Assembly (NCBI GenBank): GCA_016874655.1
Contig: VGTO01000017.1
Span: 1 to 32,021 of the forward strand
DNA: 32,021 nt
Direction of reading: 5' to 3'
Source: Bacillota bacterium
GTDB taxonomy: Bacteria; Bacillota; Dethiobacteria; DTU022
Made by a program: the position numbers and the translations under genes. Numbering within the stretch: position 1 is the first letter of the stretch; the number at the start of each line of letters is the position of its first letter. Below, one piece after another: positions 21,412-29,167 of the stretch. Below the pieces are notes generated by a model. It saw only the letters and a program-made list of their open reading frames with translations. It was not told the origin of the DNA and searched no databases.

Positions 21412-23403
21412 TTAAAGCGAGCGGGCCAGGTCGAATCCTTCGCGGATGGCCTCGGTCAGTTTGCGTGGCTTAGCCGCATCGCCAATCACACGCAGCTCTT
21501 TCACTTTACCCTCAAGCTCATTTGCCAGGCTGTTATTAGCCTTTGCCCCGATCGCCAGTACCACCGTGTCGGCAGGCAACAGTATTTGTATCCCCTCTTT
21601 TTCGACCAGCACACCTTCATTTGTAACTTCTTTAACCAGGTGCTGATCAAGAACTCTAACCCCAAGTCGGTCCACACTTTTTAAAGTAACCCAGCGGGTG
21701 CTGATGCCGATATCGCGCCCGATCCCTTTTTCCATTTCAACCAGGGTTACCTCGCGGGTGCCGCGGTTGGCCAGCTCTTTAATTTTTTCCGGTGTTTCAG
21801 CATCGTTTTCCAGCAAAAACTTCACTGTCTCGGCCGAGATTGCGCCCATTTCTGCGATCGTAATTGCGGTTTCGCAGCCAACAGAGCCACCGCCAATCAC
21901 AACCACTTTTTCACCTGGTATTACAGTGCCATCAAGCACTTCAAGAGCAGTAGTAATGATCTTAGGATTGCTGACTGGGAAAGGCGCCTCAATCGGCAGG
22001 CTGCCACTGGCCAGCACGACCAGGTCGACTCCCGCCTGAACTATCTGATCAACATTGGCGTCATGGTTGAGTAAAACAGTGACTCCATAGCGGGCTAGCA
22101 TTTCTTCGTAGAACCCGAGGAGGGTTATAAAATCTTCTTTACCAGGGGGCATAGCAGCGTATCTTAAATTGCCTCCCAGCCAGCTGCTTCTTTCCCATAG
22201 GGTAACCTTATGCCCCCTGGACGCTGCGACGTAAGCTATTTCCAATCCGGCCGGGCCGCCACCAATTACCAGGATCTCTTTTGCAGTTTCAGCCGGCAAA
22301 ACGCTTACTTGATCTTCCCTTCCGGCGAGCGGATTAACGGTGCAGTGAACATCCTGCAGAGAGAAAACCATGTCGAGGCAGCCCTGGTTGCAGGCTATAC
22401 AGCGTCTGATAGCGTGAAAATCTCCCGCTGCAGCCTTTTTTGGCAGATCGGGATCAGCAAGCAGCGGTCTGCCCATGTTGACCAGATCGGCTAAGTGATG
22501 TTGCAGGATTGCTTCGGCAACCAAGGGATCGTTAATGCGATTGCTGGCCATGACCGGCACACCGACTGCTTTTTTAATCCCTCCGGCCAGGTAAGCATAG
22601 CCTCCGCGCGGCAGCTCGCCGGTTATCTGGGGCACACGTGATTCATGCCAGCCACCTGTCACATTAAAGCAATCAACTCCTGCTTCTTCCAGGAGGGCAG
22701 CAAAGGCGGCCGCCTCTTTATTGGTGTTACTGCCCGGCATAAAATCATTTCCGGAGAGGCGAACCATTATCGTAAAATCGGAGCCGGTTTTCACCCGGAT
22801 TTTTCTGATCACTTCAATGCCGAAGCGGGTGCGGTTCTCCCAGCTGCCACCGTACTGGTCCTCACGCTGGTTGGTGATGGGGGATAGAAATTGGCAAATC
22901 AGGTAACCGGCACTGGCGATTGCTTCAACAGCGTCAAATCCGGCTTCTTTCGCCCGCCTGGCTGCTTCACCAAAATTTTCGATCACCACCTCGATATCTT
23001 CGAGGGTCATTTCGCGCGGAGTCTCTTTCGTTAATCTTGAAGCAATAGCCGATGGAGCAGCCGGCTGCTGGCCGCTCATCATACTGTGAGTGTAACGCCC
23101 TGCCTGGTAAAGTTGGGCCGCGACAGCTGCGCCGGAGGACTTCACCCTCAAGGTAAACTCTGTTAAACCGGCAATGAATTTATCATCGTGTAAGCCGACC
23201 ATCATTGGCCCCGGACCAAGCAGGTCTATGGTGCAGCCGCCTAAAGTGATCAATGCGGCGCCTCCTGAGGCCCGCGCTTCATAGTAGCGGATTAAACGCT
23301 CATTAACCATACCGTCTGGAGTGTAGCAGAGGTGCATCGCCGGCATCGCGATCCGGTTTTTTAGTTTTAAACTTCCTACTGTTATCGGTTCAAATAGCTT
23401 CAT
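21412..23403 (-). CDS. FadH/OYE-type NADH:flavin oxidoreductase
   Basis: This 663-aa flavoenzyme belongs to the 2,4-dienoyl-CoA reductase group. Residues 1 to about 330 form an FMN-binding TIM barrel (SLKLKNRIAMPAMHLCY, AAQLYQAGRYTH, REDQYGGSWENRTRF). A [4Fe-4S] site follows with C335, C338, C342 and C354. The C-terminal half has FAD and NAD(P) dinucleotide motifs, VIGGGPAGLEIA and VIGGGSVGCET. It would reduce an enoate such as an unsaturated acyl-CoA or a related substrate. The start is the ATG at 23403, 8 nt after GAAGGAG; upstream in-frame codons lack a site. The acyl-CoA synthetase gene is divergent from it. I cannot decide between dienoyl-CoA and other enoates. Confidence 0.9.
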   Translation of the reverse strand: MKLFEPITVGSLKLKNRIAMPAMHLCYTPDGMVNERLIRYYEARASGGAALITLGGCTIDLLGPGPMMVGLHDDKFIAGLTEFTLRVKSSGAAVAAQLYQAGRYTHSMMSGQQPAAPSAIASRLTKETPREMTLEDIEVVIENFGEAARRAKEAGFDAVEAIASAGYLICQFLSPITNQREDQYGGSWENRTRFGIEVIRKIRVKTGSDFTIMVRLSGNDFMPGSNTNKEAAAFAALLEEAGVDCFNVTGGWHESRVPQITGELPRGGYAYLAGGIKKAVGVPVMASNRINDPLVAEAILQHHLADLVNMGRPLLADPDLPKKAAAGDFHAIRRCIACNQGCLDMVFSLQDVHCTVNPLAGREDQVSVLPAETAKEILVIGGGPAGLEIAYVAASRGHKVTLWERSSWLGGNLRYAAMPPGKEDFITLLGFYEEMLARYGVTVLLNHDANVDQIVQAGVDLVVLASGSLPIEAPFPVSNPKIITTALEVLDGTVIPGEKVVVIGGGSVGCETAITIAEMGAISAETVKFLLENDAETPEKIKELANRGTREVTLVEMEKGIGRDIGISTRWVTLKSVDRLGVRVLDQHLVKEVTNEGVLVEKEGIQILLPADTVVLAIGAKANNSLANELEGKVKELRVIGDAAKPRKLTEAIREGFDLARSL

Positions 23404-23537
23404 TGTGTTCGCTCCTTCATGATCTGGATTAATGCTCAATTCTAATTCTACGCAGCACCGGTAATTGCCTTTTTTATAATGATTAAGAGCAGGAAATAGT
23501 TTAATTGTCTTGAACTTTTTAGGGGGAGGCGATATCG

Positions 23538-25697
23538 TTGATAAACAATCCGCTGCAACTGCTGCTCAATCCTGGTTCAATCGCTACTGTTGGCGCCGGA
23601 AATAATCCTTTGAAAATGGGGGCGATCCAGGCTTTAAGCATCGTCAAAGATGGATTTCCTGGTAAATTTTTTCCTATTCATCCCACCGAAACGAAGGTAT
23701 TTGGTTATAAAGCTTACCCGTCAGCATTTGATCTGCCGGAGGCGCCCGACCTGGTGATGTTTGTTTTGCCAGCAACGCTGGTTGTCAAGATTATGGAAGA
23801 TTTCGGAAAGATCGGCACCCGGAGGGCCATTGTTATTACGGCCGGTTTTCGCGAGATTGGTAAAGAAGGAAAACTACTGGAAGAACAGCTAAAAGAAATT
23901 ACTTCCCGCTACGGGATCAGGTTTCTTGGGCCTAACTGCATGGGAATTATCAACAGCGAGCTACCATTAAACGTAACAGTTTGCCCTTTAAGCGGCAAAC
24001 CCGGCCTGCTTGGGATGGCTTCGCAAAGTGGCACTTATATAACCCAGACTTTGCCCTACCTGCAGCAAAAGGGGATACGCTTGGCCAAGGCGATCAGCGT
24101 TGGCAACGAAGCTGATCTTGAGCTGACCGACGCTCTTGAATACCTGGGCGCAGATCCACAGTGTAAGGCGATTGCCCTCTATATAGAGGGTTTGAAAAAT
24201 GCCGGTCGCTTTCTCGATGTGGCCAGGAAGGTGACTGCCCAAAAACCGGTAATAGCCCAGTATGTAGGTGGATCTGAGGCCGGGGCCAGGGCCGGGTCGA
24301 GTCATACCGGCGCCCTGGCCGGGCCGGACTACCTCTATGATGGCCTTTTTAAACAGGCCGGTATTCTGCGTGTCGATTCGGTGGAGGAACTTTACAATCA
24401 GGGGTGGATGCTGGCCAGCCAGCCGCCGCTTAAAGGTAACAGAATCGCTGTGTTAACCAACTCGGGCGGCCCCGGGACGGCAATTTCACATACCTGTAAT
24501 GCCGGGGGGTTAGATATCCCAACTTTCTCAAAAAAACTGCAGACGGAAATTCGTCAGTACCTGCCGCCGCATGGTGCTGCAGGAAACCCGGTGGACCTGA
24601 CTTTTCACATGGATGCTGAAGTAATCAGCACCATTTTGCCGGACCTGCTCTTCAAGAGCGGCGAAGTAGACGGTATGGTTGTGCATGGCCTGATGGGCAC
24701 CGGTTTTATGAAAGCAATTCATCCACATGTGCAGGAGCTTTTTGGCGGTATTAGCTCTGAAGATTTTATCAGCCAGTTTAAGCGCGATCTCACCGATTCT
24801 CTTGCAGTCTTTGACCGCTATGATTTGCCGGTGGCGCTTTCTTCATTTTTTGGCCGGGAAGACAATTTCACAGATGTTTACCGGGAGAAGGGCATTCCGG
24901 TCCTCGACGGACCGGAAAAGGCAGCCAGGTCAATGTTGGCTCTTTACCGTTACCGGCTGGTCAGGCAGCGGTCGCTATATCAGTTACCTGTTTTGCCCCC
25001 GGTTTCTGTGATCGCGTCACAACTGATCAAGGCGGCGCTTGCAGAAGGCCGCACAGTGCTTGACGAATTTGAATCAAAGCAGTTACTGGCGGCCTACGAT
25101 GTGACGACTGTTGAGGAAATTTTAACGCATTCGGAAGAAGAGGCCGTAAAGGCAGCAATTAAAATCGGTTATCCTCTGGCCCTAAAAGGTTGTTCTGCAG
25201 AATTTGCCCATAAAACGGGAAAGGGTTTAATCCATTTAAATGTCGGGAAAGAGGAAGAAGTGCGCGAGGCTTACCGTGCGGTGATGGAGGCCGCGGGGCA
25301 GGAGATACCGCTCTTGGTGTCGAAAATGATCACAGGCGAACGGGAACTGATGGCTGGTCTGGTGAGGCATTCTTCCTTCGGGCCTTGTGTGCTCTTCGGA
25401 CTCGGCGGCATTTTGGCGGAGGCTTTTAAAGACAGGACATTTCGACTGGCGCCACTCAATGAAGCGGAAGCGAAAGAGATGCTGCAGGATATCAGGGCTA
25501 GTGAGCTTCTTGGCCCTTACCGCGGAATGCCTGCAGTCGATCAAGATCAGTTGGCCACAGTCCTGCAGGCGGTTGGCAATCTGGCCATGCTTCATCCGGA
25601 GATTTTAGAAATTGATCTTAATCCGGTCATAATCAGCGGAGCAAATCCGGTCGTAGTTGATGCCCTGGTCATTATTGATAGCCCTGTAGGCAGGTGA
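23538..25697 (+). CDS. ADP-forming acyl-CoA synthetase, fused alpha and beta subunits
   Basis: This 719-aa enzyme interconverts acyl-CoA plus ADP and phosphate with acid plus ATP, giving substrate-level phosphorylation. The alpha part (1 to about 460) has a CoA-binding Rossmann region (GSIATVGAGNNPLKMGAIQA, GIRFLGPNCMGI) and the phospho-histidine H256 in SSHTGALAGPD. The beta part (about 490-719) is an ATP-grasp domain with GYPLALKGCSAEFAHKTGKG and GLGGILAEAFKDRTF, ending in EIDLNPVIISG. The fused order is alpha-beta. The start is TTG at 23538, 8 nt after GGGGGAGG. The MoaD/ThiS-like gene begins 6 nt after its stop. Acetate is the default substrate, but branched or aromatic acids are also used by this family. 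Confidence 0.93.
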   Translation: MINNPLQLLLNPGSIATVGAGNNPLKMGAIQALSIVKDGFPGKFFPIHPTETKVFGYKAYPSAFDLPEAPDLVMFVLPATLVVKIMEDFGKIGTRRAIVITAGFREIGKEGKLLEEQLKEITSRYGIRFLGPNCMGIINSELPLNVTVCPLSGKPGLLGMASQSGTYITQTLPYLQQKGIRLAKAISVGNEADLELTDALEYLGADPQCKAIALYIEGLKNAGRFLDVARKVTAQKPVIAQYVGGSEAGARAGSSHTGALAGPDYLYDGLFKQAGILRVDSVEELYNQGWMLASQPPLKGNRIAVLTNSGGPGTAISHTCNAGGLDIPTFSKKLQTEIRQYLPPHGAAGNPVDLTFHMDAEVISTILPDLLFKSGEVDGMVVHGLMGTGFMKAIHPHVQELFGGISSEDFISQFKRDLTDSLAVFDRYDLPVALSSFFGREDNFTDVYREKGIPVLDGPEKAARSMLALYRYRLVRQRSLYQLPVLPPVSVIASQLIKAALAEGRTVLDEFESKQLLAAYDVTTVEEILTHSEEEAVKAAIKIGYPLALKGCSAEFAHKTGKGLIHLNVGKEEEVREAYRAVMEAAGQEIPLLVSKMITGERELMAGLVRHSSFGPCVLFGLGGILAEAFKDRTFRLAPLNEAEAKEMLQDIRASELLGPYRGMPAVDQDQLATVLQAVGNLAMLHPEILEIDLNPVIISGANPVVVDALVIIDSPVGR

Positions 25698-26760: not shown

Positions 26761-26925
26761 CAATAGTTGGAGCTGAATTAGTATGTACGTGACTACAGTA
26801 TTTAACACTACAGGCATTATCATTATGGTTCGGCGCCTGCACGATTCCTAATTGCCGGCGTATTTTTGGTGTACCCGGTAAGCAACTTTAGCGAATATCA
26901 GTAACTTAGGAAGGAGTGTACGAAA

Positions 26926-28329
26926 ATGAGTGAATTCTTTACCAGGATGGGAGACGGTTCGGGCGTCTACATGACAGCCGAAGAAATCCGTGAAGACATC
27001 CTGAAAGGTGTAAAAGATGCGGCAGATCGCGGCAAAATCCCGGAACTGACGCAGGAAGAGATGGACTATCTCTACAAGATAATTACCATGCCGGGCAATA
27101 TTGTCGGGGTGGAACGCGGGCGCGAGGTAGTTAGCACCTCCGATTCCGGTAGCTGTAAGATGACCTACCATGCCAATATTGCGATGGAGCGTTCAATGGC
27201 TGTACTGGTCAGCGAAAAAGTATTGGGCGCCGATTCGGTTGATATTGGCAACATGGATTACAGCTATAAGGCTGTGAAGCAGATCATCCACAACGAAACC
27301 CCGGTGATGGAGCTAGCTCAGCTCAATGCGGTAATGCCTGTTCTTTACGGCTCCATGCCCAACCTGGGCCTTTATACCAAGCCGGATGGCCCGGTGGAAA
27401 ACTGGTCCGAGCTGCTGCCGCTGGCCAAGATCGATGAAGCGCGGGCAGCCCAGGAAGAAGCGGTTGAGCATGCTGTGCGCGATATAGTCTTTGTGGCCGG
27501 CGAAATGTATGCAGCAGGAGCTGATGGCATTAACCTGGACACCTGTGGCGCTTCAGGCGACGCTGATTTCTTAGCCGGCTTGTTGGCCACTGAAAAGATA
27601 AAGGAAAAATACCCTGACTTAGGGGTTGAGTTTGGCGCCGCGGGGGAGTTTGTGCTCGGTATGCACGGCAAGATAGAATATGATGGTGCAAAAATTGCGG
27701 GCCTTTATCCGCACAAGCAGGTCAAGCTGGCCGAAAAAGCGGGCGCAAATATCTTTGGTGCAGTGGTTAACACTAACACCAATATGTCTTTTCCCTGGAA
27801 TATTGCCCGCACTGTTACCTTTGTCAAAGCCTGCACAGCAGCGGCTGAGATCCCGGTTCACGTTAATGTGGGCATGGGGGTAGGCGGCATTCCGATGAGT
27901 GAAATACCGCCGATTGATGTAGTTACCAGAGCCGATAAAGCGCTGATCGAGATTGGCAAAGCCGATGGTTTATAGATAGGCGTAGGCGATACTTTCAGCC
28001 TGGAAGTAGCTCACGCCGTATCTTCCTGCATGAGTGGAATTCGCACAGCCGGAGATCTGGTCCTGCGGATGCAACTCGCAAAAAGCATGAAGATCGACGC
28101 AGCCAAACAATATGTAGCCGATAAGCTTGGTGTCAAGCCAATCGATTTGAGTGATTCTGACCTGATGGCCGAAATCAGGGCCAAGTATGGCTTTGGTCGC
28201 TCGTTTGACCTTAACAAATCGCCCAAGGGCATTGAGGCCAAGTTTAATATTGCCCGCAAGATTGGTATTAAAATTAATTCAGTGGAGCTCTTCATGGCAA
28301 GAGCCGGACTGAATAAAGAAGGAGCATAA
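26926..28329 (+). CDS. mtbB: Dimethylamine:corrinoid methyltransferase MtbB with in-frame amber (pyrrolysine)
   Basis: The frame 26926-28329 encodes 467 aa when the TAG at 27973-27975 (codon 350) is read as pyrrolysine. It demethylates dimethylamine and passes the methyl group to the corrinoid protein MtbC. The N-terminal part (MSEFFTRMGDGSGVYMTAEE, then VDIGNMDYSYKAVK, GSMPNLGLYTKPDGPVEN, INLDTCGASGDAD, GLYPHKQVKLAEKAGANIF and HVNVGMGVGGIPM) and the part after TAG (IGVGDTF, MSGIRTAGDLVLRM, KIDAAKQYVADKLGV, NIARKIGIKINS) both match archaeal MtbB. The amber sits in DGL-TAG-IGVGD, where MtbB has DGI-Pyl-VGVGD. Total length equals that of archaeal MtbB as I recall. GGAAGGAG is 9 nt before ATG. 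The C-terminal frame has no start site of its own. Confidence 0.93.
27973..27975 (+). other. In-frame TAG read as pyrrolysine (codon 350 of mtbB)
   Basis: This amber triplet interrupts a conserved protein at the place where MtbB proteins carry pyrrolysine near the active site. The reading frame stays open for 117 more codons and keeps family similarity on both sides. Decoding needs tRNA-Pyl and PylS, which are not in this window. It could in principle be an ordinary nonsense mutation, but the exact position argues against that. Confidence 0.88.
27979..28017 (+). promoter_or_regulatory. Nested stem-loop just after the amber codon
   Basis: GGCGT (27979-27983) pairs with ACGCC (28013-28017), and inside it AGGC (27984-27987) pairs with GCCT (27998-28001) around a 10-nt loop. 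The first stem starts 3 nt after the TAG. It resembles in position the PYLIS element of archaeal mtmB. Whether bacterial genes need such an element is doubtful, so this is tentative. Confidence 0.35.
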
Positions 28330-28332
28330 AAG

Positions 28333-28977
28333 ATGAGTCTGGAATCAATTCTTGCAGCAGCAAAGCAAGCGATTATCGACATCGATGAAGATAAAGCGGT
28401 ATGTGTGGCTAAAGAGGCGCTTGAAGAAGGATTAAATCCGGTTCAGGTGCTGTCTGAAGGCTACAGTGCGGGGATCCGTGAAATAGGGGAACTTTTCAGC
28501 AGGGGCGAGGTATTCCTGCCGGAGATGATCCTTTCGGCTGAGGCAATGAAAGCGGCAACAGCAGTTCTGGAGAGTGCCATCACCGGCGCTGCCGCAGAAA
28601 AGATCGGCAAAATGATCTTTGCCACTGTTGAAGGCGATGTTCACGATATTGGTAAAAGTATCGCCATTGCTCTGATCCAGACCCAGGGAGTGGAAGTAAT
28701 CGACCTGGGTAGAGATGTGCCCGTCGATAAAATCATTGAAGCGGCAGAGGAGCACGGCGCCAAGGTAATCGGAACCAGCGCGCTCCTGACAACGACTATG
28801 CCCAACCAGGAGAAACTGGAAAAGGTCTTGCGCGAGCGTGGCCTGCGCGATAAGTATAAAACGATTGTCGGTGGCGCACCCTGCACCCAACGCTGGGCCG
28901 ACAAGATCGGTGCCGATGCTTACGCGGAAGATGCCGGCGAGGGCGTTACCAAGGTCCTCGAGCTAATGAAAAGCTAA
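28333..28977 (+). CDS. mtbC: Corrinoid protein of dimethylamine methyltransferase (MtbC-like)
   Basis: This 214-aa protein holds the cobalamin that accepts the methyl group from MtbB. The N-terminal helical cap (about 1-85) has the corrinoid-protein pattern GEVFLPEMILSAEAMKAA. The C-terminal Rossmann domain carries the cobalt ligand H104 in EGDVHDIGKSI, then GTSALLTTTM and IVGGAPCT, all typical of MttC/MtbC/MtaC. GAAGGAG, inside the end of mtbB, lies 8 nt before the ATG, only 3 nt after the mtbB stop, so translation is coupled. The corrinoid activase RamA and the second methyltransferase to tetrahydrofolate or CoM are not in the window and must lie elsewhere. Confidence 0.93.
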   Translation: MSLESILAAAKQAIIDIDEDKAVCVAKEALEEGLNPVQVLSEGYSAGIREIGELFSRGEVFLPEMILSAEAMKAATAVLESAITGAAAEKIGKMIFATVEGDVHDIGKSIAIALIQTQGVEVIDLGRDVPVDKIIEAAEEHGAKVIGTSALLTTTMPNQEKLEKVLRERGLRDKYKTIVGGAPCTQRWADKIGADAYAEDAGEGVTKVLELMKS

Positions 28978-29119: not shown

Positions 29120-29167
29120 CCCGGCCCTCAAAAGTTGAAGTTGTAATAAAATATTTTGAGGGCCGGG
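29120..29167 (+). terminator. Probable terminator after mtbBC
   Basis: CCCGGCCCTCAAAA (29120-29133) pairs perfectly with TTTTGAGGGCCGGG (29154-29167) around a 20-nt loop. Only a broken T stretch (TCCTGCTTTGCTTCTT) follows, so it is a strong stem with a weak tail. It lies 140 nt after the mtbC stop. Confidence 0.5.

Follow-up and report, generated by a model that had tools for sequence, protein, structure and literature searches.

The mtbB and mtbC genes of the window very likely form a bacterial dimethylamine methyltransferase operon, in which the organism decodes the UAG at codon 350 of mtbB as pyrrolysine with its own pylBCD and split pylSc-pylSn genes (Table 1). The window, a stretch of 32,021 nucleotides, is contig C17 of a Bacillota draft genome of 2.13 Mb (152 contigs, 96.5% complete, 3.4% contaminated). 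The mtbB frame holds only one TAG ahead of the terminal TAA (28327-28329), and counting the TAG as a residue yields 467 amino acids, with residue 350 in the motif DGL-O-IGVGD. The standard code splits the gene into two open reading frames (26926-27975 and 28030-28329), which an earlier note on this DNA had proposed to be one 467-aa protein. Its coordinates proved exact, and the PF09505 profile matches the readthrough protein across the TAG (residues 3-457; 620 bits, E 2.5e-186), resuming at the residue directly after it. Searched singly, the two halves give collinear matches to the same profile (2-353, E 5.7e-141; 355-461, E 4e-38). The protein also scores 505.2 bits against TIGR02368 over residues 2-458, above the equivalog cut-off of 369.1. 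The note had further placed a DGL-TAG-IGVGD motif at the TAG, with similarity resuming in the same frame, and codon 350 is indeed the UAG site of the family. At the level of sequence, these comparisons confirm mtbB as a single gene with one putative sense TAG.

Table 1. Features of the mtbB-mtbC locus, in positions of the window
Feature	Position	Strand	Basis
Shine-Dalgarno sequence of mtbB, GGAAGGAG	26909..26916	+	read from the sequence, 9 nt before the ATG at 26926
mtbB, predicted dimethylamine:corrinoid methyltransferase, 467 aa, pyrrolysine as residue 350	26926..28329	+	profiles, alignment, predicted fold
In-frame TAG, codon 350, probably decoded as pyrrolysine	27973..27975	+	TAG in 105/105 homologues; pyl genes in the genome
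Covarying mRNA hairpin, nt 70-95 with the U of the UAG as nt 1	28042..28067	+	synonymous constraint and covariation; overlaps hairpin 2 of RF02509
Hairpin stems: outer 70-72/93-95, partial pairs 73-74/91-92, inner 75-80/85-90; AGAU tetraloop	28053-28056 (tetraloop)		
Shine-Dalgarno sequence of mtbC, AGAAGGAG, within the mtbB 3′ end	28317..28324	+	read from the sequence
mtbC-type methyltransferase cognate corrinoid protein, 214 aa, DVHDIG (DxHxxG cobalamin motif)	28333..28977	+	TIGR02370, PF02310, PF02607

An alignment with MtbB, which the earlier note had suggested as a check, bears this out: besides the two profiles, 105 aligned bacterial homologues all carry TAG at the family column, where no relative has a sense codon, and show no in-frame TAG in any other column. 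This set includes near-duplicates, and 75 sequences are left at <85% nucleotide identity; 18 MtbB proteins from the same order align over their full length. A scan of GTDB genomes recovered 174 encoded MtbB relatives, the best 80 of which are all bacterial, all carry the TAG, and come from Bacillota, 'Deltaproteobacteria'/Desulfobacterales, Chloroflexota, and Coriobacteriia. The earlier note had regarded MtbB as less common than MttB in bacteria; these counts indicate that it undersold the family. In the viral contigs and plasmids searched, mtbB was not found. Between the window gene and its same-genus copy, dN/dS is ~0.03 both upstream and downstream of the TAG, and downstream values against other relatives are 0.07-0.11, which indicates purifying selection on mtbB both before and after the TAG.

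This genome also uses TAG as an ordinary stop: apart from mtbB, TAG terminates 63 of 269 long ORFs (23%). Its share of ordinary stops is 16-21% in two Pyl-free relatives, and no TAG depletion, a possible sign of a changed code, was seen. As a readthrough control, we took the 64 TAG-ended ORFs of at least 200 aa in 432 kb of the genome, eight of which, mtbB included, can be extended by more than 60 codons. Inspected by eye, five of the other seven extendable ORFs meet an in-frame Met, apparently the start of the next gene, within 2-7 codons, and in the remaining two nothing gene-like continues. Besides the internal TAG, twelve of the 75 mtbB genes have a terminal one, including one gene of this genome; reading past the terminal TAG would mostly add just 1-16 codons. 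The codon before the UAG (leucine, window 27970-27972) is TTG or TTA in 63 of the 75 genes (z 8.3 for TTG). That the TAG of mtbB is a true stop, leaving a pseudogene or a gene split into two products, would suit the two standard-code ORFs and the frequent use of TAG as a terminator, but it is extremely improbable given the invariant TAG column, the lack of any other in-frame stop, the strong purifying selection downstream, the profile match that goes on at the next residue, and the presence of pyl genes.

A search for pyl genes had been named beforehand as the test that could refute a pyrrolysine reading of the TAG. The refutation failed, as such genes were found on contigs C117 and C53, and the reading is supported by pylB, pylC, pylD, pylSn, and the 3′ end of pylSc in the same genome. 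The gene order on contig C117 is pylSc (its final 60 codons), pylB, pylC, pylD, and pylSn. The pylB, pylC, and pylD products score 496, 419, and 238 bits, all above their NCBIfam equivalog cut-offs, and that of pylSn 121.9 bits against a cut-off of 51. A second, partial copy on C53 (the end of pylC, pylD, and pylSn) shares 91-92% nucleotide identity with the one on C117. The two copies lie at C117:1-4066 and C53:13796-15272, with pylD frames of 274 and 329 aa, respectively; the cluster end may be truly duplicated, or the bin may contain a second strain. Among the 71 genomes of the order, MtbB occurs in 17 and PylD in 20. All 17 MtbB genomes have pylD, and it is present in three of the 54 genomes without mtbB. 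In one relative, a short mtbB-like fragment with a TAG (G060:C106:4384-4587) adjoins pylT and pylD and looks like a remnant.

As sequenced, the organism's own pyl cassette is incomplete: the draft lacks pylT and most of pylSc. No pylT was found in this 96.5% complete assembly with a pattern built from the relatives' tRNA-Pyl, and pylSc is represented by its last 60 amino acids only, at the end of C117. Relatives have pylT beside pylSc, and in the same-genus genome G042, where pylSc is complete (L081), the order pylT-pylSc-pylB-pylC-pylD is intact, with a tRNA-Pyl bearing a CTA anticodon (ARAGORN). There, pylT adjoins pylSc on its upstream side, the stretch that in the window genome lies beyond the break of C117 within pylSc. 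The missing pylT would also fit readthrough of the UAG with a standard amino acid, carried by an ordinary suppressor tRNA. We consider this highly improbable, because the contig breaks just where pylT would be expected from the same-genus genome, and because no relative has a sense codon in place of the TAG; if a standard residue were enough, such replacements should occur.

The predicted fold is a fitting one for a corrinoid methyltransferase. An AlphaFold2 model of MtbB, with lysine in place of pyrrolysine, forms a TIM-barrel with a mean pLDDT of 77, residues 351-359 beside the pyrrolysine being of low confidence. Its best structural match is cobalamin-dependent methionine synthase (Z 16.9, rmsd 3.6, 251 aligned residues), and further matches include betaine-homocysteine methyltransferase and a methyltransferase of M. 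mazei. No solved structure related to MtbB by sequence was found. Foldseek searches with the model returned mostly generic TIM-barrels; MtmB and MttB structures were not in the lists, which is no evidence against them.

The corrinoid protein gene starts 3 nt past the mtbB TAA, and its Shine-Dalgarno sequence lies inside mtbB, implying translational coupling. Its product scores 227.7 bits against TIGR02370 (cut-off 215.3), also matches PF02310 and PF02607, and in the PDB resembles the trimethylamine corrinoid protein 7xcn (E 3e-57). Since it reaches 214.2 bits against the NF041607 MtbC equivalog, whose cut-off is 350, the name MtbC is taken from its position alone. The earlier description of mtbC as the next, translationally coupled gene thus stood for the arrangement and the predicted coupling, but the protein itself falls below the MtbC equivalog cut-off. 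Downstream of mtbC lies a perfect 14-bp inverted repeat (CCCGGCCCTCAAAA / TTTTGAGGGCCGGG, 29120-29133 and 29154-29167, with a 20-nt loop), a possible terminator or repeat element. Upstream of mtbB, a BaiCD/old-yellow-enzyme type flavin oxidoreductase gene, whose product scores below the equivalog cut-offs, diverges from an ADP-forming acyl-CoA synthetase-like gene (21412-23439 and 23538-25697). By eye, an ORF at 354-1610 resembles an IS256-type transposase.

The enzyme very probably strips methyl groups from dimethylamine, to judge from its sequence family. Once inserted at the UAG, pyrrolysine in the TIM-barrel of MtbB would hold and activate the substrate amine, and MtbB would hand the methyl group, presumably from dimethylamine, to the Co(I) of MtbC. 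The methyl groups may then enter the Wood-Ljungdahl pathway; the genome encodes members of the RamA-type activase and acetyl-CoA synthase families. The same genome encodes two further Pyl-mtbB genes, three in total, to whose products the window MtbB is 51% and 65% identical. It also has 20 MTTB-family matches, four of which carry one TAG at the family site (Pyl-mttB). The window mtbB stands alone with mtbC, and each of the other two adjoins a Pyl-mttB. At one of these loci (L096; C32:8117-11692), a Pyl-mttB, a Pyl-mtbB, and a corrinoid gene follow in a row; this mtbB has one Pyl TAG plus a terminal TAG (TAGGAGG), which overlaps the Shine-Dalgarno sequence of the next gene. The likely route would lead from trimethylamine through dimethylamine to monomethylamine. 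A search for mtmB in this genome found none, so monomethylamine may be left over. Growth of the organism on dimethylamine, as the earlier note envisaged, is what we infer.

The main substrate of the window enzyme could instead be another secondary amine, and the three paralogues could divide substrates among themselves. Three diverged Pyl-mtbB genes in one 2.1-Mb genome, with the window copy alone beside mtbC and the other two beside Pyl-mttB, would fit such a division. The TIGR02368 equivalog cut-off is passed, however, and M. barkeri likewise has three mtbB isozymes for dimethylamine (PMC2933860), which makes a different main substrate unlikely, and dimethylamine remains the preferred one.

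A second feature of these genes is a hairpin in the mRNA downstream of the UAG. The 14-mer GCCGGAGATCTGGT (28048-28061) is nearly fixed within the 100 nt after the TAG, in genes that are otherwise near saturation at synonymous sites, and occurs three times in this genome, once per mtbB. In a synonymous-site scan of 307 columns and 75 sequences (median pairwise nucleotide identity 59%), codons 375-378 (GCC GGA GAT CTG) reach z values of 8.9, 14.4, 6.9, and 10.8, where the 95th percentile is 4.8. The pairs 72-93 and 75-90 join third codon positions and rank first and second for excess Watson-Crick pairing among 98,346 third-position pairs, and the three highest-ranked of 93,546 nested third-position doublets in mtbB belong to the helix. 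The tree-aware covariation signal is weaker than this raw one. Across 37 phylogenetically independent sequence pairs, pairing is kept in 7 of 11 double differences at 75-90 and in 6 of 12 at 72-93, levels matched by 0.07% and 0.8% of control pairs, respectively; the controls average 14%. On independent contrasts, the helix ranks 8th of 76,832 doublets. In 74 distinct sequences, 83.5% of helix cells are paired, as opposed to 24-41% in slid registers, and 76 helix cells have changed on both sides, compared with 33 in shuffles, none of 500 shuffles reaching 76. The window RNA itself folds into the stem.

A covariance model of the hairpin has 35 matches in the 71 genomes, each of them on the coding strand of an mtbB gene. 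At six mtbB places the model has no match, and all six are fragments; wherever an mtbB extends over the region, UAG and hairpin occur together. The hairpin was not found in the Pyl-mttB genes of the same genomes, so it is no general requirement for pyrrolysine. Codon bias is raised at nt 70-83 after the TAG of these genes, which may form a weak, small stem there (TTGGC-AGGN-GCCAA; for example in L103, L104, L105, and L158). Its distance from the TAG is about equal to that of the mtbB hairpin, and in 37 sequences its covariation is no better than that of other positions.

The existence of the mtbB hairpin is already predicted by the Rfam model RF02509 (PYLIS_2, a putative pyrrolysine insertion sequence in mtbB), which scores 46.8 bits on window positions 27973-28072 against a gathering score of 36. 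Hairpin 2 of that model (model positions 73-92) lies in the same place and is paired and covarying in the 75 sequences. The bacterial element differs in its continuous inner stem, in which 78-87 pairs as C-G, its AGAU loop, and the extension of the stem to 70-72/93-95. Hairpin 1 of PYLIS_2 (model 7-38) is not supported in the bacterial genes, where several of its pairs form in 7-24% of sequences and almost none exceeds expectation. In the literature, the PYLIS of mtmB was found to be dispensable and to show little covariance, and nothing similar was at first seen in mtbB (PMC2933860); later PYLIS structures were offered as approximations (PMC3639795).

As to its role, the hairpin may favor the reading of UAG as pyrrolysine, or it may control the mtbB message otherwise. 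A context signal for UAG would make sense in a cell that also uses TAG as an ordinary stop. We tentatively suggest, from the sequence comparisons, that a selected cis-acting recoding hairpin in bacterial mtbB raises pyrrolysine insertion over termination, with UAG having two meanings by context, even where some mtbB genes end in UAG; this is a possibility that we would put somewhat below even. At about even stands the reading that the hairpin is unrelated to UAG decoding. It would then serve protein binding, RNA stability, or polarity and form mainly when ribosomes stop at the UAG, or reflect constraints on folding or the speed of translation. The hairpin lies ~70 nt from the UAG, outside the mRNA footprint of the ribosome, too far to touch a UAG-paused ribosome without a bridging factor or long-range folding. 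Its absence from Pyl-mttB points the same way, as does the finding that pyrrolysine insertion was lowered but persisted when the mtmB PYLIS was replaced (PMC2933860). On the other side stands the joint occurrence of UAG and hairpin in every mtbB that covers the region, which also makes 'has UAG' and 'is mtbB' inseparable in existing sequences.

The window MtbB shares with Methanosarcina MtbB (TIGR02368 / PF09505) its length, its family, a single UAG at the family site, and a corrinoid partner. It differs in its bacterial host, the split pylSc/pylSn, and the common use of UAG as an ordinary stop. Bacterial MtbB is not rare and has been reported before: mtbB genes with an in-frame TAG are known from 'Candidatus Formimonas warabiya' DCMF (PMC6778437) and from Deltaproteobacteria (PMC8318568), which, like the window genome, combine such genes with many MttB-family genes and pyl genes. 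Our set of relatives includes six DCMF mtbB loci (L104, L117, L123, L139, L156, L167). Compared with these organisms, the window genome is of about 2.1 Mb, belongs to an uncultured Bacillota lineage, and has three mtbB genes and 20 MTTB-family matches. The nearest named record is the MAG UBA993 (L097), with an MtbB 97% identical to that of the window.

A 2014 paper described mtbB as almost exclusive to Methanosarcinales (PMC3941956), a statement that is updated by Pyl-mtbB in genomes labelled Bacillota, Deltaproteobacteria, Chloroflexota, and Coriobacteriia. In these bacterial genomes, standard gene callers would split the gene. Since PYLIS was proposed, it has been asked whether pyrrolysine, like selenocysteine, depends on a context signal. 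Across the 75 divergent bacterial mtbB genes one hairpin covaries, which reduces the candidate to an element of 26 nt that could help to test how cells separate the two meanings of UAG.
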